From Luteitalea sp. (GTDB lineage Bacteria; Acidobacteriota; Vicinamibacteria; Vicinamibacterales; Vicinamibacteraceae), in contig WHTT01000012.1 in assembly GCA_009377605.1 (NCBI GenBank), forward strand, positions 1 to 64,000: a stretch of DNA of 64,000 bases. Reading direction: 5' to 3'. Shown piece after piece: positions 10,380 to 41,709 of this stretch (position 1 is the first letter of the stretch; each line of letters begins with the position of its first letter). The notes under the pieces were generated by a model, which saw only the letters and a list, made by a program, of their open reading frames with translations, was not told where the DNA came from and did not search any database. The translations under genes and the position numbers were made by a program.

Positions 10380-11384
10380 TTACCGTAAGTACTCGTCGAT
10401 TGGCGGGTGGAGCAACGCTTGGGATTCTGGAGTCTCGAGGTTCTCGCTCGTCACGAGCGTCACGCCGGTGTCGATGCGCCGCGGCACCTCCTTGCCCTGC
10501 AGATGTGCAACCATCGTCATCACGCCTCGGTATCCCATCTCAAAGGGATCCTGTAAGACCACGCCGTGCAGCTGGTCGCGCTGCATGGCCCTGACGAACG
10601 CGTCGCTTGCATCGAAGCCGACAAACCTCACCTTACCGACACGCCCGAGGTCCTGCAGCGCCAGCAACATCCCGTAAGTGGAGTTCTCGTTGACCGTGAA
10701 CACGCCGTCCAACCGTGAGCCGAAGCGGTTGAGGAGATTCTCGGACGCCCGCTTCGCCGTGTCGCGCGTCGGACCGGCGTGTTGGTCTGACGAGATGAGC
10801 TCGATACCAGGGTAGCCTTGCTTCAGACGCTCGACAAAGCCTCGCTCCCGCGCCTCGGTGCTGGCCGACCCTTCTTGATACCGCAAGAGCAGCACGGTCC
10901 CCTGGCCCTCGAGCAAGGTGCCGAGCCGGTCGGCTGCCAGCACACCGCCTTCGTGGTTGTTGGTTGCCACGAAGCTGACGGTGTCGTCCGACGCAAGGTC
11001 CGAGTCGATGATCACCGTCGGCACACCGGCGCGCCGCGCCTCGTCCACGGGCCGCACGAGGGCACGGGCGTCGAGCGGCGCGAGCACCAGCCCGTCGATG
11101 CCCTCACTGAGAAAGCCCTCGACGACCTGGATCTGCTGCTCGCGGTCGTCCTCGCGCAGCGGTCCCTTCCACGTCAGGCGCACGCGCACGCCCTGCTTCC
11201 CGAGCTCGCGCTCGGCGCGAACCGCACCGGCGTGTATGCTTTGCCAAAACTCGTGCGTGGTGCCCTTCGGGATGACGGCAATGTGGAACTCGTCGGACGA
11301 GCCGCCTCCGCTGCACGCGCTCGCAAAGAGCGCACCAGACAAAAGCATCGAGACGAAAGCTGCGAGCGGTCGCATGACGGACAT
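10380..11384 (-). CDS. Sugar ABC transporter substrate-binding lipoprotein (RbsB/periplasmic binding protein type 1)
   Basis: The 334-residue protein begins with a lipoprotein signal; the likely lipidated Cys is residue 24 in FASACSGGGSS. The mature part matches the Peripla_BP_4 fold: FHIAVIPKGTTHEFWQSI at the first strand, DGLVLAPLDARALV, and the second-lobe features DGVFTVNENSTYG and VGFDASDAFVRAM. It delivers ligand to the neighbouring permease. The start lies four bases after the dehydrogenase stop, so the two are probably translationally coupled. Ligand identity is inferred only from the operon (acid sugar or related polyol). Confidence 0.92.
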   Translation of the reverse strand: MSVMRPLAAFVSMLLSGALFASACSGGGSSDEFHIAVIPKGTTHEFWQSIHAGAVRAERELGKQGVRVRLTWKGPLREDDREQQIQVVEGFLSEGIDGLVLAPLDARALVRPVDEARRAGVPTVIIDSDLASDDTVSFVATNNHEGGVLAADRLGTLLEGQGTVLLLRYQEGSASTEARERGFVERLKQGYPGIELISSDQHAGPTRDTAKRASENLLNRFGSRLDGVFTVNENSTYGMLLALQDLGRVGKVRFVGFDASDAFVRAMQRDQLHGVVLQDPFEMGYRGVMTMVAHLQGKEVPRRIDTGVTLVTSENLETPESQALLHPPIDEYLR

Positions 11385-26142: not shown

Positions 26143-26171
26143 TTGACAGGAGTGCGGCGAGGGGGTTACCT
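26143..26171 (+). promoter_or_regulatory. Conserved TTGACA-N17-TTACCT upstream element of receptor paralogue A
   Basis: TTGACA and TTACCT are separated by exactly 17 bases, as at two other receptor genes in this window. TGCTC followed by a CCATTTC-like motif lies six bases further on. The left hexamer is a perfect -35; the right one is a poor match to TATAAT, so a different sigma factor or an activator is possible. Confidence 0.6.
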
Positions 26172-26206
26172 TTCTTGTGCTCAACCATTTCAGGTTGCAT
26201 GCTCCC

Positions 26207-26257
26207 GTCGCCGACGGGTGCGGGCGATCAGCGTGCCTCGCATCCCGCGTCGGCGAC
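26207..26257 (+). other. Strong hairpin in the 5' leader of receptor paralogue A
   Basis: GTCGCCGAC at 26207-26215 pairs with GTCGGCGAC at 26249-26257, and the stem continues with GGGTGCG against CGCATCC across a three-base bulge. It sits between the promoter-like element and the ribosome-binding site, so it may affect mRNA stability or translation. Confidence 0.5.
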
Positions 26258-26310
26258 GCCGGATCTTTGTGATTTGCCGCTTCCGATGCGGCTTGACATG
26301 GAGGTATGGT

Positions 26311-29300
26311 GTGAGGCCCCCTAACGTCCTTGGGAGGATTGGGATCAATGCACTGGTTATAACCGGTGCGATCAGCTCATGGAGCCCGCCGGTGAACGCC
26401 CAGGTCCTGTACGGCGGCCTGGTGGGCACGGTCAGGGACTCGTCCGGCGCGGCGGTCCCGGGCGCGAGCGTGACGGCAGTCAACACGAATACCGGCCTGG
26501 TGCTCGAGACCGTGAGCAACGAGACCGGCACTTACTCCATCACGAATGTCCAGCCTGGCCCCTACGACGTGAAGGTGGTGCTGCAGGGCTTCAAGGAGTT
26601 CGTGCGGACCGGCGTGCCGGTCACCGTGAACACGATCAGCCGCGTCGATCTCACGCTCGACGTAGGTGGCCTCGCGGAGACGGTCACGGTCGCCTCCGAA
26701 GCGACCTTGCTTCAGACCGACAAGGCCGACGTGCACACGGAGCTGAAGTCTGCCGAGATCACGAGCCTGCCGCTCAACCAGTTTCGCAACTACCAGGCGC
26801 TCGTCAACCTCGTGCCTGGTGCGACGCCGGCGATGTTTCAGAACGCCGAGACCGACTCACCCGCGCGCTCGCTGACCACGAACGTCAACGGTCAGAACCG
26901 CAACAACAATGCCAACCGCACCGACGGCGCGACGAACTTGAACATCTGGCTTCCACACCACGACATGTACGTGCCGCCGGCGGAGACCATCGATACTGTC
27001 AACATCTCCACGAACAACTTCGACGCTGAGCAGGGGATGGCGGGTGGCGCCGCCCTCACTGTCATCACCAAGTCCGGGACGAACGAGCTCAGGGGGTCGG
27101 CGTTCGAGTTCTTCAACAGCGAGGCATTGAACGCGAGACCATATTTCTTCGGAACGGCAGATGCCAAGCCGGAAAAGCTGCCTATCGACCAGAACGTCTT
27201 CGGTGGCACGGTCGGCGGCCCCATCAAGCGCAACGCGCTGTTCTTCTTCGGCTCGTTCGAAGGCTACAGGCGATCGCAGAACCTGTTCAACTTCTTCACG
27301 GTACCGGATGCGGCACTCCGAAACGGCGACTTCCGGAACGCGCGCAACACGGACGGGTCGCGTCAGATCATCTACGACCCGATGACCGGCAACCCGGATG
27401 GCACCGGCCGCCAGCCGTTTCCCAACAACGTGATTCCATCCGACCGGATCCATCCGATCGCGCGCCAGTTGCTGGATCTGTATCCGGAGCCGAACACTAC
27501 GGGCTTCGGCGCCGGCGGCTTCACGGACAACTATCAGCGCCAGGAGAAGCGCACGACGGACCGATACAACTACGACGCGAAGATCAACTGGAACCGGACA
27601 TCGGCGCACCAGATCTGGGGGAAGTTCAGCTACATGGACGCCGTTGTCGACGACCGCACCTACTTCCTGGGTCCCGACCCGAATGCGCAGGGTGACGGCG
27701 GCGACACCAAGGTCTACCAGTTCACCGCCGGTCAGACCTGGACGCTCAGCCCAACGGTCGTCGTCGACAGCACGTTCGGCTTCGCGCGTCAGGACCAGTC
27801 GGTGCTGGGACCAGATCTCCAGGCCGGCAACTTTGGCCTCGATGTACTGGGCATCCCGGGCACGAACGACCAGGGGCTCGGCGATTCGCGGTACGCCGGC
27901 TACCCGCGCTTTGACACGGGCTTCAGCCTGCTCGGCAACTACGAAGGATGGATGCCGATCTTCCGCGACGAGCGCACCTACTCAGTCTCGACCAACCTCA
28001 CGAAGGTGGCGGGTCGCCACGAGATTCGCGCCGGCTATCTCGTGAACTTCCTCTACCTCGATCACTGGCAGCCGGAGATCGACAACCCGCGCGGTCGCTT
28101 TCAAATCGCTACGAACGCGGCGGCGCTCAACGCCGATGGCGCGCAGACCGGTAACTTCTACAACCGGTACGCGGCCACCTTGCTGGGCCTGGTGGGAACA
28201 GCCAGCAAGAGCGTGCAGAACGAGCTGATGACCGGGCGCGAGTGGCAGCATGGGGTGTTCGTCCGCGACCGCTGGGCGGTGAACAACAAGCTCACGCTCG
28301 ACCTCGGCGTCCGCTGGGAGTACTACCCGATCATGCATCGGGCAGACCGCGGCCTCGAGCGGGTCGATCTTGAAACGCTCGATGTGCTCCTCGGCGGCCT
28401 CGGCGGCAATCCCGAAGACGTCGGTCTGGACGCGAGCGCGAACCACTTCGCGCCACGCGTCGGGATCGTCTATCGATTGAACGACGACACCGTGGTGCGC
28501 ACGGGCTACGGCGTCACCTACAACCCGATGCCCTGGTCGCGGCCGCTGCGCGGGTTCTATCCGCTCACGATCGCGGCCAGCTTCTTCCAGGACGAGCCGT
28601 TCGGCTTCGCCAGCACCCTCGATGAAGGCATTCCGCTCATTGAGGGGCCGGACCTCAGCAGCGGCCGGGTTCCGCTGCCCGCTGAAGCCGCGATGCGGAC
28701 ACCTGAGCCCGGCAACGTGGATCGCGGCATGATTCAGTCCTGGAATCTTTCCTTCGAGCGGCGTCTGCCTGGGGATCTCTCGGTAGATCTTGCCTACGTC
28801 GGGACCAAGGGCGACGGTGGGTATGCCGACCTCGATATCAACTCGCCGCAGGAGGTCGGGACCGGCAACCAAGGCCGGCCGTTCGCGTCAATGGGCCGAA
28901 CCAACGATCTCAACCTCTGGGGCGGGCGCTTGAAGACGCGGTATCACGCCCTGCAGGTGGCCCTGAATCGCCCCTTCACGGGCGGGCTGATGCTGAAGGG
29001 CGCCTACACCTGGAGCAAAGCGATGAACATGGCGGACGATGACGGCTGGGTCGGGCTCACCTGGGACATGCCGAGTCAGCTTCATCGCAACTACGCCCTT
29101 GCCGGCTACGACCGGACGCACAACTTCCAGCTCGGGTTCCTCTATCAGCTCCCGTGGCGCAACGATGGAGGCTACAGCAGCATCGCGAAGGCCCTCGTCA
29201 GCGACTGGCAGATCAACGGGGTCTTTGCGGCGTTCACCGGCACGCCCTTCACGGTGACCGCGAGCGGCGCTGTGCTGGACACGCCGAGCAACACGCAGAC

Positions 29301-29664
29301 GGCCGACCAGGTTAGCGACGCCCAGAACGTCGGCGAGATTGGCGCGAGCGGGACGTACTACGACACAAGCGCCTGGGCACAGCCGGAGGGGGTCCGCTTT
29401 GGCAACTCGGGCCGAAACTCGGTGCGCGGCCCCGGCGGCGTCAACCTCGACCTCTCGCTGTTCCGGGCCTTCCCAATGGGCGGCACACGCCGGCTGGAGT
29501 TCCGGGTCGAGGCCTCCAACGTGTCCAACACGCCAAAGTTCAACAACCCGAGCAACAACGTCACGAGCGGGACGTTCATGCAGGTGACGAGCCTGCTAGG
29601 AGGCAACGCCACTCCCGCTTACCCGCCACGGCAGGTTCGCCTTGGCCTGAGGTTCAGCTTCTGA
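26311..29664 (+). CDS. Oar-like TonB-dependent receptor, paralogue A
   Basis: A GTG start at VRPPNVLGR, five bases after GGAGGT, gives 1117 residues. It aligns with the N-termini of paralogues B and C; the frame is open upstream but that part lies in the leader. The signal peptide includes the shared LVITGA and ends near residue 30 (NA before QVLYGG). A carboxypeptidase-regulatory-like domain (LVGTVRDSSGAAVPGASV) follows, then the plug (TDGATNLNIWLPHHDMYV and GGAALTVITKSGTNELRGS) and a barrel ending in RLGLRFSF. It is closer to C than to B: A and C share SLPLNQFRNYQALVNL and FFGTADAKP. Likely role is uptake of a large substrate; identity is unknown. Confidence 0.9.
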   Translation: MRPPNVLGRIGINALVITGAISSWSPPVNAQVLYGGLVGTVRDSSGAAVPGASVTAVNTNTGLVLETVSNETGTYSITNVQPGPYDVKVVLQGFKEFVRTGVPVTVNTISRVDLTLDVGGLAETVTVASEATLLQTDKADVHTELKSAEITSLPLNQFRNYQALVNLVPGATPAMFQNAETDSPARSLTTNVNGQNRNNNANRTDGATNLNIWLPHHDMYVPPAETIDTVNISTNNFDAEQGMAGGAALTVITKSGTNELRGSAFEFFNSEALNARPYFFGTADAKPEKLPIDQNVFGGTVGGPIKRNALFFFGSFEGYRRSQNLFNFFTVPDAALRNGDFRNARNTDGSRQIIYDPMTGNPDGTGRQPFPNNVIPSDRIHPIARQLLDLYPEPNTTGFGAGGFTDNYQRQEKRTTDRYNYDAKINWNRTSAHQIWGKFSYMDAVVDDRTYFLGPDPNAQGDGGDTKVYQFTAGQTWTLSPTVVVDSTFGFARQDQSVLGPDLQAGNFGLDVLGIPGTNDQGLGDSRYAGYPRFDTGFSLLGNYEGWMPIFRDERTYSVSTNLTKVAGRHEIRAGYLVNFLYLDHWQPEIDNPRGRFQIATNAAALNADGAQTGNFYNRYAATLLGLVGTASKSVQNELMTGREWQHGVFVRDRWAVNNKLTLDLGVRWEYYPIMHRADRGLERVDLETLDVLLGGLGGNPEDVGLDASANHFAPRVGIVYRLNDDTVVRTGYGVTYNPMPWSRPLRGFYPLTIAASFFQDEPFGFASTLDEGIPLIEGPDLSSGRVPLPAEAAMRTPEPGNVDRGMIQSWNLSFERRLPGDLSVDLAYVGTKGDGGYADLDINSPQEVGTGNQGRPFASMGRTNDLNLWGGRLKTRYHALQVALNRPFTGGLMLKGAYTWSKAMNMADDDGWVGLTWDMPSQLHRNYALAGYDRTHNFQLGFLYQLPWRNDGGYSSIAKALVSDWQINGVFAAFTGTPFTVTASGAVLDTPSNTQTADQVSDAQNVGEIGASGTYYDTSAWAQPEGVRFGNSGRNSVRGPGGVNLDLSLFRAFPMGGTRRLEFRVEASNVSNTPKFNNPSNNVTSGTFMQVTSLLGGNATPAYPPRQVRLGLRFSF

Positions 29665-29701
29665 GCCCGGTGTCAGGCGTGCGACAGTCGTAGCCCTCCA
29701 C

Positions 29702-29734
29702 AAGGGCCTGGCGAGTGATCGCTGGGCCCTTTTG
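29702..29734 (+). terminator. Intrinsic-type terminator after receptor paralogue A
   Basis: AAGGGCC (29702-29708) pairs with GGCCCTT (29725-29731) around a loop of about 16 bases and runs directly into a short T-stretch (CTTTTG). It separates the A and B transcripts. Confidence 0.65.
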
Positions 29735-29861
29735 TATCACGCAGCACCACCCTACCCTGCTACACCTGTGCGGCTGCACGCCGCGCAGCCACCTCCGCTG
29801 TCACCTCAGTGTCATCGTGGTGCGCTACGCTGATCGTTATTCGTGTGCGCACGTCTGGCCG

Positions 29862-29890
29862 TTGACACAAGCCCGGTAAGCGGATTACCT
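29862..29890 (+). promoter_or_regulatory. Conserved TTGACA-N17-TTACCT upstream element of receptor paralogue B
   Basis: Same arrangement as at 26143: a perfect -35 hexamer, 17-base spacer, TTACCT, then TGCTC six bases later. The start codon lies about 138 bases downstream, nearly the same leader length as paralogue A. The whole gap between A and B (about 360 bases) holds only this element, the terminator and a leader hairpin. Confidence 0.6.
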
Positions 29891-29993
29891 TGGTGCTGCT
29901 CAGCCAGTTCGGTTGTGCGCCCCCGCTGTCTCATTGCGTGTCGCCCTGATTCTCGTCGCATGGTGTGCTCGGTGATGAAGGGCTTTTTATTGT

Positions 29994-30013
29994 GTGCCCC
30001 GCGTTGGGGGCAC
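29994..30013 (+). other. Leader hairpin just before the ribosome-binding site of paralogue B
   Basis: GTGCCCC and GGGGCAC form a 7-bp perfect stem with a six-base loop, ending four bases before the GGAGG site. Paralogues A and B also share near-identical sequence from the ribosome-binding site into the first codons (GGAGGT-TGG-GTGAG followed by CCCCCTAA). Confidence 0.5.
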
Positions 30014-30028
30014 GGTTGGAGGTGTGGA

Positions 30029-33000
30029 GTGAGCCCCCCTAAGGCAGCAGCAAGGAGAATTGTAGCCATTGCGCTGGTTATAACCGGTGCGACCATGCCA
30101 TGGGCTCGGCCAGCCGACGCCCAGGTCTTGTACGGCGGCCTCGTCGGCACCGTGCGCGACAGCTCCGGCGCCGCGGTGCCGGGCGCGACGGCGACCGCGA
30201 CGAACACGAATACCGGCCTCGTGCTCGAGGCCGTCTCCAACGAAGCCGGCAACTACAACATCACGAACATCCAGCCTGGCGCCTACGACGTCAGCATCTC
30301 ACTGCAAGGATTCAAGGAGTTCGTGCGCACGGGCGTGCCGGTGACCGCCAACAGCATCAGCCGCGTGGACGTCACCTTGGAGGTCGGTGAGCTCCAGGAG
30401 ACGGTGACCGTTGCCTCCGAGGCGGCCCTGCTGCAGACCGACACCGCGGACGTGCACACCGAGCTGAAGGCGAAGGAGATTACGGACCTTCCGCTACCGA
30501 GCTACCGGAACTACCAGAGCCTGATGAACCTCGTGCCGGGGGCAACGCCGGCGGTCTTTCAAAATGCGCTTACCGACTCGCCAGCGCGTTCGCTGCGGAC
30601 ATTCGTCAACGGCCAGAACCCGAATAGCAACGCGACGAAGACCGACGGCGCCACGAACGTGAATCTCTGGCTACCGCACCACGTCATGTACGTCTCTCCG
30701 GCCGAGACGGTCGACACGGTCAACATCTCGACCAACAGCTTCGGCGCCGAGCAGGGGCAGGCAGGTGGCGCGGCGATCACGGTGATCACCAAGTCCGGCA
30801 CGAACCAGCTGTCCGGTTCCGCCTTCGAGTTCGTCAACAGCGACGCCCTCAACGCCAGAGAGTTCTTCGACCCCGAGAAGCCGCCGCTCGATCGCAACAT
30901 CACGGGCGGCACGCTCGGCGGTCCCATCGTCCCGAACAAGCTGTTCTTCTTCGGCTCCTATGAGGGCTTCTTCGACCGCAGCTCGGACTTCGGGTTCTAC
31001 GATGTCCCCACCCCAGCCCTGCGCACCGGAGACTTCGGCAACGCGCGGAACGCAGACGGCACCCTGCAGGTCATCTATGATCCCATGACCGGCAACGAGG
31101 ATGGGACTGGCCGCCAGCCGTTTCCCAATAACGTGGTCCCTGCTGATCGGATCAACCCGGTCGCTCGGGACGTCCTCGACCTCTACCCACTGCCCAATGC
31201 AGGTGACGATGCCCACGACGCGACGCGGAACTTTACGCGTGAGAACAACACCAACGTCGATCGGCACAACTTCGACGTCAAGATCAACTGGAACCGTAGC
31301 TCGTCTCACCAAATCTGGGGCAAGTACAGCCAGATGAACGCCACGGTGGGCAACTTGTTCTACCTGGGTGTGGACGGCAACGGCAACGGCGACACCAAGG
31401 TCTATCAATCGACCTTCGGCCATACCTGGACGCTCAGCCCCACCTTGGTGCTCGACTCGACGTTCGGCTTCTCACGTCAGGATCAGAACGTTGCAGCGTC
31501 GGACTTCGAGCTCGGATTCTTCGGGCGCGACGTGCTGGGCCTGCCTGGCACCAACGGCGGGAATGGGGCATTCGCAAACGACGAGCGCTACTCGGGATTT
31601 CCAGAGTTCAATCCTGGCTTCAGCGCCCTGGGCAACAACGCCGGCTGGAACCCGCTGTTCCGAGACGAGCGCACGTACGCGATCTCCACGAACCTGACGA
31701 AGATGGCCGGCGACCACGAGCTGCGCTTCGGGTACTCGGGCAACTATCTGTACCTCGATCATTGGCAGCCGGAGGTCGCCAATCCACGCGGCGAATTCAA
31801 CTTCGCCGCCAACGCCACCGGGCTCAACGGCGGCCAGACCCCCAACTTCTACAACACGTACGCAGCCTTCATGCTCGGCCTCGTCAGCAGCACGAACAAG
31901 AGCATCCAGAACGAGCTAATGACGACGCGCGAGTGGCAGCACGCGCTGTACCTCAACGATCGCTGGCAGCTCAACGACCGGATGACGGTCAACCTCGGGC
32001 TTCGTTATGAGTACTATCCGCTCATGACGCGCGCCGGGCGTGGCATCGAGCGGCTGGATCTCGAGACCATGGAGGTGCTCCTCGGCGGTGTCGGCGGCAA
32101 CCCGGATGATCTCGGCGTCGATGTGGGCAGCGGCCTGTTCGCACCGCGCCTCGGGTTCATCTATCGCGTGAACGACGAGACGGTGTTCCGCAGCGGATAC
32201 GGCATCACGTACAACCCGCTCGGGTTCGCCCGGCCGCTGCGCGGGTTCTATCCGCTGTCCATCGGCGACAACTTCTCACAGGACAATCCGTGGGGCTGGG
32301 TCGCCGAGCTCAACGAAGGCATTCCGGAGGTGCAGCAGCCGGACACGAGCAGCGGCCGCGTCCCGCTGCCGCCGACGGTTGACATGCGCACGCCGGAGTC
32401 GGACCTCACGCGCGGCTACATTCAGTCCTGGAACGTCGCCATCGAGCGGCGCTTCCCGGGCGACATCTCGGTTGATCTCGCCTACGTCGGCACGAAGGGC
32501 ACCGACGGGTTCGCCGACCTCGACATCAACGCCTCCGACACACCGGGAGGCGGCAACGAGAGCCGGCCGTTCTTCGAGGAGTTCGGCCGCAACCGCGACC
32601 TCAAGAGCTGGGGACCGCGCCTAAAGACCGAGTACCACGCCCTGCAGGTCGCCGTCAATCGGCCGTTCAGAAACGGCCTCATGCTCAAGGGGGCGTACAC
32701 CTGGTCCAAGGCGATGGGCGAAAGCGCAAACGGCGAAGACGGCTGGGTCGGCCTCCGATGGAACGCACCGAGCCAGCTCCACCGTAACTACGCCTTGCAG
32801 CCCTTCGATCGCACGCACGTGTTTCAACTCGGCTTCCTCTATGAGCTGCCGTTCGCGAGGAACACGACAGGCATCACCAAGGCGCTCGCCGACGGCTGGC
32901 AGTTGAACGGTATCGCGTATGCCTATTCCGGTGTTCCCTTCACGGTCACGGCAAACAGCGGGATCTCGATCAACATGCCAGGCAACATCCAGACGGCCAA

Positions 33001-33358
33001 CCAGGTGGCGGACCCCGTCGTGCTCGGCAACGTCGGCGATGCCGGAACGTACTTCGATCCGAGCGCCTGGGAGCAGCCCGAGGGCGTAGAGTTCGGCAAC
33101 TCTGGTCGCAGCTCCGTGCGCGGCCCCGGCGCCTGGAACCTCGACCTGTCGGTGTTCCGCGCCTTCCCGTTGGGTGCATCGCGCCGGCTCGAGTTCCGCG
33201 CCGAAGCGTTCAACATCCTCAATCATCCGATCTTCAATGGACCGGCTGGCCTTGGCGGGAACCAGGATGAAGGCGTCACTGCCAGCGACTTCATGCAGAT
33301 CTTCAGCACGGCGAACGCGCCGCGGACCATTCGACTCGGCCTGCGATTCAGCTTCTAG
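30029..33358 (+). CDS. Oar-like TonB-dependent receptor, paralogue B
   Basis: A GTG start at VSPPKAAARR, six bases after GGAGG, gives 1109 residues and mirrors paralogue A. The signal peptide contains ALVITGA and ends near ADA before QVLYGG. The order is regulatory-like domain (TVRDSSGAAVPGATA), plug (TDGATNVNLWLPHHVMYV, GGAAITVITKSGTNQLSGS) and barrel ending RLGLRFSF. It is the most divergent of the three: LPLPSYRNYQSLMNL replaces the LPLNQFRNYQALVNL of A and C, and the FFGTADAKP insert is absent. This suggests a related but distinct substrate. A strong terminator follows. Confidence 0.9.
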   Translation: MSPPKAAARRIVAIALVITGATMPWARPADAQVLYGGLVGTVRDSSGAAVPGATATATNTNTGLVLEAVSNEAGNYNITNIQPGAYDVSISLQGFKEFVRTGVPVTANSISRVDVTLEVGELQETVTVASEAALLQTDTADVHTELKAKEITDLPLPSYRNYQSLMNLVPGATPAVFQNALTDSPARSLRTFVNGQNPNSNATKTDGATNVNLWLPHHVMYVSPAETVDTVNISTNSFGAEQGQAGGAAITVITKSGTNQLSGSAFEFVNSDALNAREFFDPEKPPLDRNITGGTLGGPIVPNKLFFFGSYEGFFDRSSDFGFYDVPTPALRTGDFGNARNADGTLQVIYDPMTGNEDGTGRQPFPNNVVPADRINPVARDVLDLYPLPNAGDDAHDATRNFTRENNTNVDRHNFDVKINWNRSSSHQIWGKYSQMNATVGNLFYLGVDGNGNGDTKVYQSTFGHTWTLSPTLVLDSTFGFSRQDQNVAASDFELGFFGRDVLGLPGTNGGNGAFANDERYSGFPEFNPGFSALGNNAGWNPLFRDERTYAISTNLTKMAGDHELRFGYSGNYLYLDHWQPEVANPRGEFNFAANATGLNGGQTPNFYNTYAAFMLGLVSSTNKSIQNELMTTREWQHALYLNDRWQLNDRMTVNLGLRYEYYPLMTRAGRGIERLDLETMEVLLGGVGGNPDDLGVDVGSGLFAPRLGFIYRVNDETVFRSGYGITYNPLGFARPLRGFYPLSIGDNFSQDNPWGWVAELNEGIPEVQQPDTSSGRVPLPPTVDMRTPESDLTRGYIQSWNVAIERRFPGDISVDLAYVGTKGTDGFADLDINASDTPGGGNESRPFFEEFGRNRDLKSWGPRLKTEYHALQVAVNRPFRNGLMLKGAYTWSKAMGESANGEDGWVGLRWNAPSQLHRNYALQPFDRTHVFQLGFLYELPFARNTTGITKALADGWQLNGIAYAYSGVPFTVTANSGISINMPGNIQTANQVADPVVLGNVGDAGTYFDPSAWEQPEGVEFGNSGRSSVRGPGAWNLDLSVFRAFPLGASRRLEFRAEAFNILNHPIFNGPAGLGGNQDEGVTASDFMQIFSTANAPRTIRLGLRFSF

Positions 33359-33386
33359 CCTCTCACGCAACGCGGTCGACAAACAC

Positions 33387-33422
33387 ACGCCGGCAGGCCT
33401 CACGCCCGCCGGCGTTCTTATT
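33387..33422 (+). terminator. Intrinsic-type terminator after receptor paralogue B
   Basis: ACGCCGGC (33387-33394) pairs perfectly with GCCGGCGT (33408-33415) and is followed by TCTTATTT. It insulates the toxin-antitoxin pair from the receptor transcript. Confidence 0.7.
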
Positions 33423-33476
33423 TGCAGATGCGCCCCCCGCCGATGTGGCGTCTGAAGCCAATCTGTTTCAGTTACT

Positions 33477-33490
33477 TACCATTAGTGGTA
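33477..33490. promoter_or_regulatory. Palindrome upstream of the AbiEi-like gene
   Basis: TACCA-TTAG-TGGTA is a 5-bp inverted repeat ending 10 bases before the GTG start. Its place fits an autoregulatory operator, as is known for AbiEi-type antitoxins binding inverted repeats at their own promoters. The surrounding AT-rich sequence could also hold the -10 element. Confidence 0.4.
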
Positions 33491-33500
33491 TGTTATGTGA

Positions 33501-34142
33501 GTGACATTTACCGGACTCCTGCAAGTCGTGGGGCAGGAGCCCGTTTTCGACACAGGGCTGCTCCTTGCAGGGACCGCCTCTGTGGCGGACGTCGAGCGGC
33601 AGCTCAGCCGATGGAAGCGCTCCCGCCGCATCGTACAGATTCGCCGTGGTCTCTACGCTCTTGCCGCGCCGCACCGTAAGGTCGAGCCCCACCCATTCCT
33701 CGTGGCTAATCGGTTGGTTCCGGGCTCCTACGTCAGTTGTCAGGCTGCCCTGGCGTGGCACGGGCTCATTCCGGAGCACGTCGCGGTCGTCACGAGCATC
33801 AGCACACGGGGAACGCGCCGTTTCCAGACATCGCTGGGCTCGTTCCTGTTTCGTCACGTCAAGCCCAAGCTGCTGTTTGGCTACCGCGTCGAGCGCGTCA
33901 CTCCTGGGCAGGATGCGCTGGTGGCATCTCCAGAGAAGGCCCTGCTCGACCTTGTACACCTCGAACCTGCAGGCGACACGGAACCTTTCCTCGAGAACCT
34001 TCGCTTGCAGCACCTCGATCAGCTCGACCTGGAGCTGCTTCGTCGCTCCGCTCGGTCCGCCGAATCACCAAAGCTTGTCCGAGCCGCGTTGGTCGTCGAG
34101 ACACTCGCCGAGACGGAACGAGCAGATTACGAGGCGCTGTGA
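33501..34142 (+). CDS. AbiEi-type antitoxin / transcriptional regulator-like protein (type IV toxin-antitoxin)
   Basis: The 213-residue protein begins at a GTG immediately after ATGTGA; start strength is weak. The N-terminal part (residues about 20-60) looks like a winged helix, with VERQLSRWKRSRRIVQIRRGLYAL, the typical AbiEi pattern ending in RGLYAL. It continues with SYVSCQAALAWHGLIPE and VASPEKALLDLVHLEP, also characteristic. Family knowledge: AbiEi represses its own operon and counteracts the nucleotidyltransferase toxin AbiEii. The stop overlaps the next start (GTGA), which is the classical antitoxin-first order. It stands between two receptor paralogues. Confidence 0.82.
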   Translation: MTFTGLLQVVGQEPVFDTGLLLAGTASVADVERQLSRWKRSRRIVQIRRGLYALAAPHRKVEPHPFLVANRLVPGSYVSCQAALAWHGLIPEHVAVVTSISTRGTRRFQTSLGSFLFRHVKPKLLFGYRVERVTPGQDALVASPEKALLDLVHLEPAGDTEPFLENLRLQHLDQLDLELLRRSARSAESPKLVRAALVVETLAETERADYEAL

Positions 34143-34951
34143 AGGAATACATCCGCCACCTATTGGGACCCGACACCTCCGGACCACGCGGCGTGAATGT
34201 CGTGCGCGAGTATCTACAGGCGCGCATCCTCTCGGCTTTGCAGCGTGAAGGCGCGATGATGGCACTGGCGTTTCAGGGTGGCACCGCTCTGCGTTTCTTG
34301 TACGCGTTGCCGCGGCACTCGGAGGATCTCGACTTCACGCTGGAACGCCCCGAGAAGCCATACGATCTCCGGCGCTGCGCAGAGGCGGTCCGGCGTGAGC
34401 TCGCTGCGGAAGCGTACGACGTGGAGATCCGGGTTAGCGATCGACGCGCAGTGCACTCAACCTTCGTCAGGTTTCCTGGTCTCTTGTACGAACTGGCTCT
34501 TGCCCCTCGGAGGCAGCAGGTGCTGTCCGTCAGGATCGAAGTGGATACCCGGCCACCTCGCGGCGCACGACTCGAAACAACGGTCGTCCGGCGCCATGCC
34601 ATCCTGCAACTTCAACACCACGACCGGGCATCCCTCCTCTCGGGCAAGCTGCACGCCGTTCTCCAGCGCCCTTACGTCAAGGGACGCGATGTCTATGACC
34701 TGCTGTGGTACCTGAGCGACCGTACGTGGCCCGAGCCGAATCTCGACCTTCTCCGCGAAGCGCTCCGGCAGACTGACTGGAGCGGCCCCCTGCCCGATCA
34801 GATCACTTGGAGAGAAGTGGTTCGCAGTCGCCTCGAAGACATGAACTGGAGTCGTGTTGTCTCCGACGTGACTCCCTTTCTCGAAGTGCCGACGGAGGTC
34901 ACGATGCTCACGCGCGAGAACCTGCTCCAATTGCTGGATATGTCCCGATGA
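34139..34951 (+). CDS. AbiEii/AbiGii-type nucleotidyltransferase toxin
   Basis: The 270-residue protein starts at the GTG overlapping the antitoxin stop. The nucleotidyltransferase core is clear: GGTALR at residues 47-52, then HSEDLDF with acidic residues 62-65. The later LLSGKLHAVLQRPYVKGRDVYDLLWYL is a conserved motif of AbiEii proteins. Length is near the family's usual 250-300. Family knowledge: DUF1814-type toxins, some of which transfer nucleotides onto tRNA acceptor stems and cause abortive-infection-like growth arrest. Catalytic residues appear intact, so the module is probably active. The promoter-like element of receptor C begins only 20 bases after the stop. Confidence 0.88.
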   Translation: MKEYIRHLLGPDTSGPRGVNVVREYLQARILSALQREGAMMALAFQGGTALRFLYALPRHSEDLDFTLERPEKPYDLRRCAEAVRRELAAEAYDVEIRVSDRRAVHSTFVRFPGLLYELALAPRRQQVLSVRIEVDTRPPRGARLETTVVRRHAILQLQHHDRASLLSGKLHAVLQRPYVKGRDVYDLLWYLSDRTWPEPNLDLLREALRQTDWSGPLPDQITWREVVRSRLEDMNWSRVVSDVTPFLEVPTEVTMLTRENLLQLLDMSR

Positions 34952-34971
34952 CGACCTAGATTGCCGCTGCG

Positions 34972-35000
34972 TTGACACCAGCGCCGCAAAAGGATTACCT
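34972..35000 (+). promoter_or_regulatory. Conserved TTGACA-N17-TTACCT upstream element of receptor paralogue C
   Basis: This is the third copy of the arrangement, again with a 17-base spacer and a TGCTC-CCATTTC-like motif shortly after. The leader is about 126 bases. Conservation at C despite the intervening toxin-antitoxin genes indicates that the element belongs to the duplicated receptor unit. Confidence 0.6.
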
Positions 35001-35126
35001 TCCGTTTTTGCTCCACCATTTCGTCGTGCGCGGGTCGACCGCGCTGGAAGCGGCAACGGCTGCGCGTCCCACGATGTGAGATCCGATGCCAGCCCGTCGC
35101 CGCGATGAGCTCGGAGGGAGGAAGGC

Positions 35127-38100
35127 ATGAGACCCGCTCGCGCAGTCGGGACGATGGTCGTGACCGTCCTGGTCATAACCGGTGCGATCGCCTTGTCGAA
35201 GCGGCCGGCCGTGGCACAGGTCTTGTACGGCGGCTTGGTCGGCAGCGTCACCGATAGCTCCGACGCCGCCGTGCCCGGCGCCACCGTGACCGCCACCAAC
35301 ACCAACACCGGTCTCGTCCTCGAGACGGTGAGCGGCGACAACGGCAACTACTCCTTCACGAACGTGCAGCCGGGCCCGTACGATGTGCAGGTGGTGCTGC
35401 AAGGGTTCAGAGAGTTCCTGCGAACCGGCGTGCCCGTCACCGTGAACACCATCAGTCGCATCGACGTGAGGCTCGAGGTCGGCGCCCTCACCGAAACGGT
35501 GACGGTCGCCTCGGAGGCGTCACTCCTGCAGACCGACAAGGCCGACCTTCACACGGAGCTGAAATCAGACGAGATCACGAGCCTGCCGCTCAATCAGTTC
35601 CGCAACTATCAAGCGCTGGTCAACCTCGCACCTGGCGCGACGCCCGCCACGTTCCAGAACGCCGAGACCGACACGCCCGCGCGGTCGCTCCGCACCTTCG
35701 TCAACGGCCAAAATCCCAACAGCAACGCCACGCGCACGGACGGGGCCACGAACGTCAACATCTGGCTGCCGCACCACGACATGTACGTCTCCCCGGCGGA
35801 GACGATCGACACGGTCAACGTCTCCACGAATACCTTCGACGCCGAGCAAGGCATGGCCGGCGGCGCCGCCATCACCGTCGTCACCAAGTCGGGCACGAAC
35901 GAGCTCAGGGGGTCGGCCTTCGAGTTCTTCAATAGCGACACGTTGAACGCGCGGCCCTATTTCTTCGGGACCGCGGACGCCAAGCCGGACAAGCTCCCGG
36001 TCAACCGCAACATCTTCGGTGGCACGATCGGTGGGCCGATCAAGCGCAACACGCTGTTCTTCTTCGGCTCGTACGAGGGCTACAAACAGTCGCAGGACCT
36101 GTTCAACTTCTTGAGCGTGCCGGATAGCGGGCTCCGAAACGGCAACTTCGGCAACGCGCGCAACGCCGATGGCACTCGTCAGGTCATCTACGACCCGGCC
36201 ACGGGCAATCCGGATGGCAGCGGCCGCCAGCCGTTCCCGAACAACGTGATCCCGGACGACCGCATTCACCCGATCGCGCGCGAATTGCTCGAGCTGTATC
36301 CACTGCCAAATACGACAGGCTTCGGGGCCGGTGGCTTCAGCCAGAACTACCAGCGGCAGGAGAGCCGGACCACGGACCGGTACAACTACGACGGCAAGAT
36401 CAACTGGAACCGGACCTCCTCGCATCAGATCTGGGGCAAGTTCAGCTACCTGGACGCGGTCGTCGACGACCGGACCTACTTCCTCGGGCCCGACCCTGAC
36501 GCCGAGGGCGATGGCGGCGACACCAAGGTGTACCAGTTCACGGCGGGCCAGACCTGGACGCTGAGCCCGACGGTCGTCCTCGACAGCACGTTCGGCTTCT
36601 CGCGTCAGGACCAGACGGTCCTCGGCGCAGACTTCGAAGCGGGGAACTTCGGTCTCGATGTGCTGGGGATTCCCGGGACGAACGACCAGGGTCTCGATTT
36701 GCCCAACAGAGACCGCTACGCGGGTTACCCGCGGTTCGACGTTGGGACGAGCGCCACGACGACCGGTACTCCGCCTCTCACGAATGCCGCGCCGTTTTCA
36801 GTGCTGGGAAACTTCGAGGGTTGGATGCCGATCTTCCGCGACGAGCGGACGTACTCATTCTCGACCAACATCACCAAGGTCGCCGGGCGGCACGAGTTCC
36901 GGGGTGGTTACCTGGTGAACTTCCTGTCCCTGACGCATTGGCAGCCGGAGCTCGACAACCCGCGCGGCCGCTTCGACTTCACGACACGCAGCACGACGGC
37001 GCTCAGGGGCGGGCCGCAGACGGCAAACTTCTACAATTACTACGCCGCGTTCTTGCTCGGCCTCCCAGGCACCGTCAGCAAGAGCGTGCAGAACGAGCTG
37101 TTGACCGGCCGGGAGTGGCAGCACGGCCTCTATTTCCGCGATCGCTGGAACGTGAGCTCGAAGATGACGCTCGACCTCGGCGTGCGATGGGAGTACTACC
37201 CCATCATGCATCGGGTCGACCGTGGCATCGAGCGCGTGGATCTCGAGACGCTCGACGTGATGCTCGGCGGGCGCGGCGGCAATCCCGAGGACGTCGGCCT
37301 GGAGGCAGGCAAGGACAACTTCGCTCCGCGGGTCGGGTTCGTCTATCGGCCCAACGAGGACACCGTCATCAGGAGCGGTTACGGCGTCACGTACAACCCC
37401 GTCCCGTGGTCGCGCCCGCTTCGTGGCTCGTACCCGCTCACGATCGCAGAGCAGTTCTTCGACAACGAGACATTCGCACCGTATGGGCCGCTCGACGAAG
37501 GCATCCCGCTGATCACGGGGCCAGACCTCGAGAGCGGTCAGTTTCCGCTGCCGCCTGGGGTCGCCATGCGAACGCCGGAGCCGGGCAACATCGACCGCGG
37601 CACGATTCAGTCGTGGAACCTCGCGGTCGAGCGGCGTCTGCCCCTCAACATGTCGCTGGATCTCGCCTACGTCGGGACCAAGGGCGACGGCGGCTATGCC
37701 TGGATCGACATCAACGCGCCGCTGGAGATAGGCTCCGGTAACGACGGGCGGCCCTACGCTTCGCTCGGGCGGTTCCGGAATCTCGACTCCTGGGGTGCCC
37801 GCTTGAAGACGCGGTACCACGCCTTCCAGGTCGCCCTCAACCGGCCACTCAGCGATGGTCTGATGCTCAAGGGGGCCTACACGTGGGGCAAGTCGATGAA
37901 CATGTCGACCGGCGACGAGGACGGGTCGACGGGTGTTCATTTCAACACGCCAAGTCAGTATCACCGCAACTATACGGTCGCCGGCTTCGACCGGACGCAC
38001 AACTTCCAACTGGGGTTCTTGTACCAGCTCCCATGGCGAAGTGACGAGGGCTATGGCAACGTCGCGAGGGCGCTCATCAGCGACTGGCAGCTCAACGGCG

Positions 38101-38528
38101 TCTTCGCCATGTTCAGCGGTACACCGTTCGACGTGACCGCGAACGGGGACACCCTGAACACGCCGAGTAACCTCCAGACCGCCGACCAGATTGGAGACAC
38201 CACGCGCATCGGCGATGTCGGCGCAAGCGGGACGTACTACGATCCGAGCGCTTGGGCACAGCCGGAGGGCGTGCGCTTTGGGAGCTCGAGCCCGAACTCG
38301 GTCCGCGGCCCCGGAGGCGCCAACCTGGATCTCTCGGTGTTCCGGGCCTTCCTGCTAGGTGGGCTCCGGCGGCTCGAGTTCCGGGTCGAGGCTAACAACG
38401 TGACCAACACGCCGAAGTTCGCGAACCCGAACGGCGATGTCAACAACGCGAACTTCATGAGGATCACGAGCACGCTCAACGGATACGGCGAGCGTCAGAT
38501 CCGGCTTGGTGTGAGGTTCGCGTTCTAG
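35127..38528 (+). CDS. Oar-like TonB-dependent receptor, paralogue C
   Basis: The 1133-residue protein starts at an ATG with GGAGGGAGG upstream. The signal peptide contains VLVITGAIAL and ends at VA before QVLYGG. The domain order is as in A: regulatory-like domain (SVTDSSDAAVPGATV), plug (TDGATNVNIWLPHHDMYV, GGAAITVVTKSGTNELRGS) and barrel ending RLGVRFAF. Relative to A it has a longer segment at the GYPRFDVGTSATTTG-containing loop, a probable extracellular-loop difference. Duplication of A or C is evident; divergent loops suggest related ligands. A palindromic repeat follows the stop. Confidence 0.9.
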   Translation: MRPARAVGTMVVTVLVITGAIALSKRPAVAQVLYGGLVGSVTDSSDAAVPGATVTATNTNTGLVLETVSGDNGNYSFTNVQPGPYDVQVVLQGFREFLRTGVPVTVNTISRIDVRLEVGALTETVTVASEASLLQTDKADLHTELKSDEITSLPLNQFRNYQALVNLAPGATPATFQNAETDTPARSLRTFVNGQNPNSNATRTDGATNVNIWLPHHDMYVSPAETIDTVNVSTNTFDAEQGMAGGAAITVVTKSGTNELRGSAFEFFNSDTLNARPYFFGTADAKPDKLPVNRNIFGGTIGGPIKRNTLFFFGSYEGYKQSQDLFNFLSVPDSGLRNGNFGNARNADGTRQVIYDPATGNPDGSGRQPFPNNVIPDDRIHPIARELLELYPLPNTTGFGAGGFSQNYQRQESRTTDRYNYDGKINWNRTSSHQIWGKFSYLDAVVDDRTYFLGPDPDAEGDGGDTKVYQFTAGQTWTLSPTVVLDSTFGFSRQDQTVLGADFEAGNFGLDVLGIPGTNDQGLDLPNRDRYAGYPRFDVGTSATTTGTPPLTNAAPFSVLGNFEGWMPIFRDERTYSFSTNITKVAGRHEFRGGYLVNFLSLTHWQPELDNPRGRFDFTTRSTTALRGGPQTANFYNYYAAFLLGLPGTVSKSVQNELLTGREWQHGLYFRDRWNVSSKMTLDLGVRWEYYPIMHRVDRGIERVDLETLDVMLGGRGGNPEDVGLEAGKDNFAPRVGFVYRPNEDTVIRSGYGVTYNPVPWSRPLRGSYPLTIAEQFFDNETFAPYGPLDEGIPLITGPDLESGQFPLPPGVAMRTPEPGNIDRGTIQSWNLAVERRLPLNMSLDLAYVGTKGDGGYAWIDINAPLEIGSGNDGRPYASLGRFRNLDSWGARLKTRYHAFQVALNRPLSDGLMLKGAYTWGKSMNMSTGDEDGSTGVHFNTPSQYHRNYTVAGFDRTHNFQLGFLYQLPWRSDEGYGNVARALISDWQLNGVFAMFSGTPFDVTANGDTLNTPSNLQTADQIGDTTRIGDVGASGTYYDPSAWAQPEGVRFGSSSPNSVRGPGGANLDLSVFRAFLLGGLRRLEFRVEANNVTNTPKFANPNGDVNNANFMRITSTLNGYGERQIRLGVRFAF

Positions 38529-38629: not shown

Positions 38630-40030
38630 GTGCCCCTTCCGTACCTTCGGGTGATCGCGCTGCTCGTGGCCGTGGGATCGCAGGCCGTCGGCGCACGGCA
38701 GCCGCTGCCTGTGCCGGAGCTCTCCCTCGAGGCCTATCCGCCCGAGGCCAGGCGCGCCATCGAGCCGGCGTATCGTGAGGCGGTCGCCAACCCAGAGGAT
38801 GCGGGAGCCGTGGGCCGTTTGGCGATGACGCTGCATGCGTGGGAGCAGTGGGACCGAGCCGCCGCAGCCTACGCGCGCGCCGCTGCCCTCGCACCCAAGA
38901 CGTTCGACTGGCCCTATCTCGCAGCTGTTGTTGCCGCGCGCACCAAGCGCTCTGCCGAAGCCGTCCCCTGGCTCGAGACGGCACTGACGCTGCGTCCCGA
39001 TTACCTGCCTGCTCGCCTCAAGCTGGCCGAAGCGCTGCTCGAAACGGCGCAGCGCGAGAAGAGCGCTCGGCACTTCGAAGCGCTCGCACGCGAGCCCGAA
39101 GCCGCCGCGCCGGCAGAGTACGGCCTCGGACGAGTCGCTGCAGAGGATGGCCGCACCGAGGCCGCCGTCGCGCATTATCGCCGCGCCTGCAGCCTCTTTC
39201 CGGAGTTCGGTGCCGCCCACTACGCGCTCGCCATGGCGTATCGCGACCTGGATCGGCGAGACGAAGCGCGCGGTGAGCTCGAGCTGCATCACAAGTACGG
39301 TACGCGCTGGCCCGGCCTAGACGATCCGCTGCTCGCCGGTGTCCACGCGCTCAAGGTCGACTCGCGATCGCAGGCGCAGCGAGGCCTCGAGTTGGCCAAA
39401 GCGGGACGTCTCGAGGAAGCCGTGCAGGCGCACGAAGCCGCCCTGGCAGCAAATCCCGAGCTCGTTCAGGCCCACGCCAACTTGATCTCACTCTACGGCC
39501 GGTTGAAAGAATGGCAGAAGGCCGAGGCACACTACCGGGCCATCGTCGACGCCGGCCGGGAGTCGGACGAGGCGCACTACAACTATGGGGTACTCCTCGG
39601 ACTGCAGAAGCGCTACGCCGAAGCCGCGGAGGCCTATCGCAAGGCGATCGAGGTCAACCCGCAGCGCGCATCGGCGCACAACAATCTCGGCCAGCTACTC
39701 GAGCAAGACGGCCGTGTGGACGAGGCGTTGGACGCCTACCAGCGTGCGGTCCGCGAGGCACCGACGTTCCGCCTGGCGCGGTTCAATCTCGGGCGGATGT
39801 TCATTGGCTCGCGCCGGTTCGACGAGGCAATCGCCGCGCTGTCCAAGCTGACGACGCCGGTGGATGCCGAGACGCCGCAATACCTGTTCGCACTGGCCAC
39901 GGCGTACGTACACGCGGGTCAGCGCGAGGTTGGCCTCGAATGGGCGACAAAGGCCAAGCAGCTCGCCGAGTCGCACGGCCAAACGGCGCTGGCCGCAGCC
40001 ATCGAGCGCGAGCTGGCGGGCCTCCGATGA
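38630..40030 (+). CDS. Exported tetratricopeptide repeat protein
   Basis: The 466-residue protein starts at a GTG with a signal-like N-terminus (LRVIALLVAVGSQAVGARQ). At least seven to eight TPR units follow, for example AHYNYGVLLGLQKRYAEAAEAYRKAIEVNP and HNNLGQLLEQDGRVDEAL. TPR proteins mediate protein-protein contacts and have no enzymatic role by themselves. The stop overlaps the start of the CRTAC1-type gene (ATGA), so the pair is likely made together and may form a surface or periplasmic complex. Confidence 0.85.
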   Translation: MPLPYLRVIALLVAVGSQAVGARQPLPVPELSLEAYPPEARRAIEPAYREAVANPEDAGAVGRLAMTLHAWEQWDRAAAAYARAAALAPKTFDWPYLAAVVAARTKRSAEAVPWLETALTLRPDYLPARLKLAEALLETAQREKSARHFEALAREPEAAAPAEYGLGRVAAEDGRTEAAVAHYRRACSLFPEFGAAHYALAMAYRDLDRRDEARGELELHHKYGTRWPGLDDPLLAGVHALKVDSRSQAQRGLELAKAGRLEEAVQAHEAALAANPELVQAHANLISLYGRLKEWQKAEAHYRAIVDAGRESDEAHYNYGVLLGLQKRYAEAAEAYRKAIEVNPQRASAHNNLGQLLEQDGRVDEALDAYQRAVREAPTFRLARFNLGRMFIGSRRFDEAIAALSKLTTPVDAETPQYLFALATAYVHAGQREVGLEWATKAKQLAESHGQTALAAAIERELAGLR

Positions 40031-41709
40031 CACCCTCCCTGCTGACGCGTTGTGCTGCCGCTGCGCTGCTGCTGCCACTCGCCATCGACGCGCCCCTCTT
40101 TCGCGAGGCCGCGCGTGATGTCGGCCTGGCATTCACGCACGTGAACGGCGCCTCCGGGCAGTACTACATGCCCGAGGTCATGGGCGCGGGTGTGGCCCTG
40201 TTCGACTACGACAACGACGGGGACCTCGACGTCTACGCCGTGCAGGGGCTCGACGACCTCCGTGACGCCCCATCGGCCCCCGTGTCCAGCCTCTTTCGCA
40301 ACGACCTCACGACATCGTCCGACGGCCAGCCGACACTACGCTTCACGGAGGTCACACAGAAGGCAGGCGTTGGTCTAGCCGCGTATGGCATGGGGACCGC
40401 GGTGGGAGACTACGACAATGACGGCAACCTCGACCTGTACGTGACGACGTTCGGGTCGAACGTGCTCTATCGCAACAAGGGCGACGGTACGTTCACCGAC
40501 GTGACGAGAACGGCAGGGGTCGACGATCCGCGTTGGAGCACGAGCGCCGCCTTCCTGGATTACGACCGCGATGGCGATCTCGATCTCTTCGTCGCAAACT
40601 ACGTGGCCTTCACGATTGCGAGCAACAAGATCTGCTACGAGGCGCTCGGTGCCCGCGACTACTGCGGTCCGCGCGCCTATAATCCAGTGCCAGACCGCAT
40701 GTTCCGCAACAATGGTGACGGCACCTTCACCGACGTGACCGAGCCCTCCGGCATGGCGAGCGCCTTCGGTCGCGGCCTCGGCGTCGCCACGGGTGACTAT
40801 GACGGTGATGGCTGGATCGATGTCTACGTGGCGAACGACGCCTCCCCCAACCAGCTCTGGATCAACCGTAGCGACGGGACGTTCGAGGATGCAGGCCTGC
40901 TGTCTGGCACCGCCGTCAGCGGTGACGGCCGTCCCGAAGGCAGCATGGGCATTGCCTCCGCGGATTACGACGCAGACGGTGATGAGGACCTTCTCGTCTC
41001 GAATCTCACGGGCGAGACCTTCGTGATCTACACCAACGATGGCACGGGTAATTTCGAGGACAGCCGCCGGGCGGCCGGTCTCGCGATGCCGACCGCGGGC
41101 ATGACGGGGTTCGGCACCGACTGGTTCGACTACGACGCCGACGGCCGGCTCGATCTCTTCGTCGCCAACGGCGCGGTCAATATCATCGGCGAGCAGCGGG
41201 GACACGCCCAGCCGTTCCGACAGCGCAACCAACTCTTCCACCAGGAAGCACAGGGACGCTTGACGGAGGTGACCGCCAACGCTGGCGCAGCTCTAGCGCT
41301 CATCGAGGTCAGCCGCGGCGCCGCGTTCGGCGACATCGACAACGACGGTGATATCGACCTCCTCGTGACCAACAATGCGGGCCCGCTGCGCCTGTTGCTC
41401 AATGAAGCACGGGCAGAGCGGCACTGGCTGTCGGTCAGGTTGGACAACGGGGCACGCAACCGCTGGGGTGTCGGCGCGCGCGTCGGCGTTGCGCGCCAGG
41501 GGCAGCCGACGCTCTGGCGGCGCGTCCGCAGCGATGGCAGTTATCTCTCGGCCTCCGATCTACGTGCCCACTTTGGTCTTGGCGCGAATGCCGCAATCAG
41601 CGCCGTCATCGTGGAATGGCCAGATGGATCCCGCGAACGCTGGACCGATGTCCGTACAGATCGCCTCGTTGTGCTAACGCGTGGTGAGGGAAGCCGGCCG
41701 GGCCGCTAG
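40027..41709 (+). CDS. CRTAC1 family protein: FG-GAP/VCBS repeats with C-terminal ASPIC/UnbV domain
   Basis: The 560-residue protein begins at the ATG overlapping the TPR stop, with a signal-like start (LLTRCAAAALLLPLAI). It contains about six FG-GAP-like calcium-binding repeats with DxDxDGxxD loops, such as LFDYDNDGDLDVY, VGDYDNDGNLDLY, FLDYDRDGDLDLF and WFDYDADGRLDLF. The C-terminal about 70 residues form the ASPIC/UnbV domain (RWGVGARVGVAR to GANAAISAVIVEWPDGS). Family knowledge: beta-propeller surface proteins of unclear function, common beside TPR genes in Acidobacteriota and Planctomycetota. It is followed by a REP-like cluster. Confidence 0.88.
   Translation: MTPSLLTRCAAAALLLPLAIDAPLFREAARDVGLAFTHVNGASGQYYMPEVMGAGVALFDYDNDGDLDVYAVQGLDDLRDAPSAPVSSLFRNDLTTSSDGQPTLRFTEVTQKAGVGLAAYGMGTAVGDYDNDGNLDLYVTTFGSNVLYRNKGDGTFTDVTRTAGVDDPRWSTSAAFLDYDRDGDLDLFVANYVAFTIASNKICYEALGARDYCGPRAYNPVPDRMFRNNGDGTFTDVTEPSGMASAFGRGLGVATGDYDGDGWIDVYVANDASPNQLWINRSDGTFEDAGLLSGTAVSGDGRPEGSMGIASADYDADGDEDLLVSNLTGETFVIYTNDGTGNFEDSRRAAGLAMPTAGMTGFGTDWFDYDADGRLDLFVANGAVNIIGEQRGHAQPFRQRNQLFHQEAQGRLTEVTANAGAALALIEVSRGAAFGDIDNDGDIDLLVTNNAGPLRLLLNEARAERHWLSVRLDNGARNRWGVGARVGVARQGQPTLWRRVRSDGSYLSASDLRAHFGLGANAAISAVIVEWPDGSRERWTDVRTDRLVVLTRGEGSRPGR

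Follow-up and report, generated by a model that had tools for sequence, protein, structure and literature searches.

The question raised by this locus is how transcription begins at three tandem Oar-like receptor genes, each preceded by the same element, in which a perfect -35 hexamer is paired with what looks like a poor -10. In the 64,000-nucleotide stretch of DNA analysed here (the window), TTGACA followed by 17 bases and TTACCT recurs at positions 26143-26171, 29862-29890 and 34972-35000, always on the plus strand, as the initial annotation had it; the window holds no further copy, and 100 dinucleotide shuffles of the window yielded none. The perfect TTGACA upstream of all three receptors, the TGCTC with a CCATTTC-like stretch 3’ of each site, and the reported 126-139 bases to the start codon agreed equally well with our analysis, the last being 139, 138 and 126 bases for receptors 1, 2 and 3 when counted from the last T of TTACCTT. 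Beyond the hexamer the three sites read T-TCTTG-TGCTCAACCATTTC, T-GGTGC-TGCTCAGCCAGTTC and T-CCGTTTT-TGCTCCACCATTTC, respectively, so that the gap to TGCTC is not fixed (5, 5 and 7 bases). Across the whole genome, TTGACA-N16-18-TTACCTT was found at one site beyond these three, C22:32548, where the spacing is N16.

The genes themselves are tandem paralogues on the plus strand with Pfam matches to OMP_b-brl_4 and CarboxypepD_reg. Receptor 1 (26311..29664) begins with GTG after a GGAGG, receptor 2 (30029..33358) with GTG and receptor 3 (35127..38528) with ATG; relative to receptor 1, receptor 2 is 66% and receptor 3 is 77% identical. The family is very large, receptor 1 as query recovering 202 matches, fragments included, in its own 6.8-Mb genome, and the closest named records, at 64-68% protein identity, come from metagenome-assembled genomes of Acidobacteria gp6; the organism is thus probably an uncultured member of that acidobacterial group. 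The interval between receptors 2 and 3 (33501-34951) encodes an AbiEii-type nucleotidyl transferase of the type IV toxin-antitoxin family (Pfam), preceded by an ORF at 33501-34142 with no Pfam match. Downstream of receptor 3, a TPR protein and an FG-GAP/UnbV-ASPIC protein occupy window positions 38630-41709.

The apparent weakness of the -10 is largely a matter of register. The initial annotation had read TTACCT and judged it a poor match, but this frame lies one base too far to the left; TACCTT, at 18 bp from TTGACA, fits a TAnnnT class and retains T-12, A-11 and T-7, the most important -10 bases of sigma-70 promoters. So read, the hexamers are TTGACA at 26143..26148 and TACCTT at 26167..26172 for receptor 1, 29862..29867 and 29886..29891 for receptor 2, and 34972..34977 and 34996..35001 for receptor 3, all on the plus strand, with the -35 conserved in four aligned promoters. 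We prefer the shifted register because three independent observations agree on it. A tandem receptor promoter in a second genome of the same genus (G006) reads TTGACA-N18-TATCTT-CTTAG-TGCTCAGCCATTTTCGGCTG / TGCTCAGCCATTT, and keeps T-12, A-11 and T-7 rather than the first T of TTACCT, which favors TAnnTT. Among the TTGACA hexamers in the genome’s own upstream regions (n=77; 1.6 Mb), a spacing of 17 bp to TAnnnT occurs 8 times and one of 18 bp 13 times, whereas each remaining spacing between 12 and 23 accounts for 0-5 cases; the gene starts in this 1.6 Mb were set by a basic script of our own and are approximate, and the other spacings serve as a better control than the reverse-strand set, which is unclean because divergent genes share upstream regions. 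Finally, the leader of the rRNA operon carries TTGACA-N17-TATACT and TTGACA-N17-TAGACT, a few hundred bases upstream of where the 16S rRNA match lies. On the other side, only three of the six positions of TATAAT are matched by TACCTT, and a generic consensus promoter scan did not call the TACCTT promoter; the E. coli-like -10 weights that were applied are an illustration only.

We conclude, with a probability of roughly 0.85, that the elements are housekeeping sigma-70 (RpoD) promoters of the form TTGACA-N18-TACCTT that were inherited by the three tandem receptor duplicates and have been kept by purifying selection. At the level of sequence, the comparisons establish that the promoter is there, in which frame it is to be read and that it is conserved; from the resemblance of the motif, RpoD would be the factor used at all three. 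The genome encodes an RpoD (TIGR02393, 411.8 bits) that carries TRERIRQIEAKALRKLRHP, and its regions 2.4 and 4.2 look canonical by eye. Judging from the position of the -10, the holoenzyme would start about 6-8 bases after it, in or just before TGCTC, and would produce an mRNA leader of about 120-130 bases before a Shine-Dalgarno sequence and the GTG or ATG start. The TGCTCA...CCATTTC at the predicted 5’ end of the transcript would then probably be an addition serving initiation or regulation, in the form of a weak 5’ stem-loop or of an operator.

Searches of the literature on this bacterial group yielded no mapped promoters, and comparison is with better known systems. Like bacterial sigma-70 promoters in general, the elements have a perfect TTGACA, a spacing of 17-18 bp and T-12, A-11 and T-7, a form also taken by the genome’s own rRNA promoters; they differ in a -10 middle of CCT or TCT in place of TAA, and in the TGCTCA conserved at the predicted start. 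The -33/-7 promoters of Bacteroidetes have the consensus TTTG...TAnnTTTG. TAccTT is similar to the left-hand portion of TAnnTTTG, but the present elements have a full TTGACA, none of the three is followed by TTTG, and the RpoD lies in an open frame of about 600 codons.

The same promoter form is found well beyond the tandem array. TTGACn-N17/18-TAnnnT lies upstream of 15 of 70 receptors, the set being those that have an upstream gap; for other genes the figure is 19 of 685 (Fisher p=3e-8), and when the three focal receptors are left out it still precedes 12 of 67 receptors (p=3e-6); shuffled receptor upstream regions contain a mean of 0.26. In related genomes, 8 of 25 receptors have this form at 17/18 bp, with almost none at other spacings, and one of these relatives (L057) has exactly TACCTT, without TGCTC. 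Given the enrichment and the promoters of the relatives, the three elements belong to the genome’s general promoter class. The enrichment of TTGACA-N17-TTACCTT before other receptors that the initial annotation had proposed looking for does not appear outside the tandem set in this genome; what is enriched is the general sigma-70 form. This offers a rule for a poorly studied group, that Oar-like expansion receptors are preferentially served by TTGACA-N17/18-TAnnnT promoters, and their start sites are therefore predictable.

The sequence just downstream of the -10 fits a plain sigma-70 account less well, since the exact TAYCTT-TGCTCA combination is limited to one genus, which sigma-70 promoters would not require. 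An activator or a conserved leader signal had also been suggested for these sites, and one of these may in part apply: TGCTCA is conserved near the predicted +1 and opens a small inverted repeat in three of four receptor leaders. The predicted start region of receptor 1 is TGCTCAACCATTTCAGGTTG (26178..26197, plus strand; start placed from the -10), which folds and contains the inverted repeat CAACC-ATTTCA-GGTTG. That of receptor 2 is TGCTCAGCCAGTTCGGTTG (29897..29915, plus strand), with CAGCC-AGTTC-GGTTG and a fold z of -2.7, and that of receptor 3 is TGCTCCACCATTTC (35009..35022, plus strand), without a stable hairpin (z -0.2). Two interpretations of this region can be offered, both as additions to the sigma-70 core promoter and not as replacements for it.

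The first is tentative. A repressor or activator bound at TGCTCAnCCA... near +1 may co-regulate a subset of receptors together with an unrelated small-peptide unit (C22/C123), as a small regulon specific to the genus. In the genome, TGCTC lies 5-7 bases downstream at all four TTGACA-N16-18-TTACCTT sites, the fourth of which precedes an unrelated gene. A start-region signal common to the receptors and to the C22 site is plausible because that site was found without using TGCTC, whose chance of falling at the right place is about 0.6%. Among the 21 other TTGAC[A/T] promoters (1.6 Mb), none has TGCTC within 14 bases; in seven genomes of the family, TAYCTT-N5-7-TGCTCA was found only in the two genus members (7 matches); and some other receptor promoters of the same genome have palindromes at the same position. 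Two of these seven matches to TAYCTT-N5-7-TGCTCA, both in G006, were set aside as lying inside coding sequence. Against such a regulon, receptor 3 and the C22 family both lack the inverted repeat, the repeat spacer of 5 or 6 bases would be unusual for a DNA operator, and the independent cases are few and the argument was made partly after the fact. TTGACA-N17/18-TACCTT-N4-8-TGCTC was searched for in 148 further genomes from the order and found in none. The downstream motif TGCTCANCCANTTC on its own, with one mismatch allowed, did not clearly outnumber its reversed control, a result that is uninformative. It is doubtful that TAYCTT-N5-7-TGCTCA as such marks a small regulon of this one genus, with some of the Oar-like receptors placed, by way of the region where the transcript starts, under common control with a free-standing unit comprising a conserved leader of about 165 nt and a hydrophobic peptide of about 33 aa. 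The TGCTCA link to the small-peptide unit is a modest, testable lead.

The small-peptide unit has a recognizable architecture of its own. C22:32548 (L107:12548-12880) is the fourth member of the TTGACA-N17/18-TACCTT-N4-8-TGCTC set in this genome and has no receptor downstream. A second copy in the same genome, at C123:3622 (L237:3622-3950), has the -10 TACGTT, and the copy in the relative, at G006 C33:41063 onward (L238, minus strand), has TATCTT. The layout is a promoter, the leader of about 165 nt, a Shine-Dalgarno sequence, a hydrophobic peptide of about 33 aa (MGLDVVLALVFGLLEPVLGIVSGLLGGALGGTLPI and relatives) and a hairpin; the leader, of which TCGTCACGCCGGTGGCTCGAGCAACTCCCCAGGCTCGGCGCTGGTGGCCACCCG is an example, has a mean column identity of 83% over the three copies. 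No Rfam match was obtained for the window or for these leaders, and among 100 genomes the unit was not found outside the genus. One match to the leader, in G073, was rejected as a chance hit inside a coding region. The unit may combine a structured RNA and a small membrane peptide, resembling a type I toxin in its build.

The second interpretation is that a stem-loop at the 5’ terminus of the receptor mRNA stabilises the transcript, as the ompA 5’ stem-loop does for the transcript of an outer-membrane protein gene; we regard this as rather unlikely. CAACC/GGTTG in receptor 1, CAGCC/GGTTG in receptor 2 and CAGCC/GGCTG in the G006 relative can all pair, one position remaining paired through its changes (A-U, G-U, G-C), with fold z of -1.3, -2.7 and -3.4, respectively, and the loop varies in length as RNA allows. 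The covariation is nonetheless a single position in three sequences, the receptor 3 leader does not fold (z -0.2), and the leader past the stem is not conserved. Compared with the ompA type, a small predicted stem-loop here likewise lies at the predicted 5’ end of a transcript for an outer-membrane protein, but only three of four leaders fold.

Could the shared element be a relic of recent tandem duplication, not yet diverged and without function? The receptors are indeed tandem paralogues, 66-77% identical to receptor 1. Across the promoters of receptors 1-3 and the G006 relative, however, identity reaches 100% in the -35 and 86% in the -10 block, as compared with 29% for the 60 bp upstream and 44-53% at fourfold-degenerate sites of the same four loci. 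This difference indicates that the element has been kept by selection, which makes common descent without function a very improbable account; the shared element very probably has a function.

A dedicated alternative sigma factor reading TTGACA-N17-TTACCT, the proposal that the three copies of identical geometry and the poor fit of TTACCT to TATAAT had invited, has scarcely any probability left, given that the TTACCT register is lost in the G006 promoters (CTATCT, GTATCT) and the C22 spacing is 16, that the motif is not enriched beyond the local duplicates (the 6.8 Mb contain 4 sites, of which three belong to the tandem paralogues) and is present in none of six family genomes, and that the shifted register fits the genome’s general -10 and its rRNA promoters. 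Register, number and distribution of sites all argue against it, and the case shows how a one-base misreading of a -10 can point to a superfluous sigma factor.

Elsewhere in the genome, a related receptor (about 60% identical; C23:1-3300, minus strand) is read in two frames and is for that reason probably a frameshift or a pseudogene. Its upstream region has no TTGACA and -10 of the TTGACA-N18-TACCTT type, and retains TGCTCAGCCAG. On C6, palindromes directly follow the -10 upstream of the receptors at 11059, 45469 and 28880 (minus strand). One of them, ATCGAAAACGTTTTCGAT, has a LacI-like appearance; together with TGACATCGATGTCATGACGTCG / TGACATCGATATCATGACATCG it suggests putative operators for different repressors.
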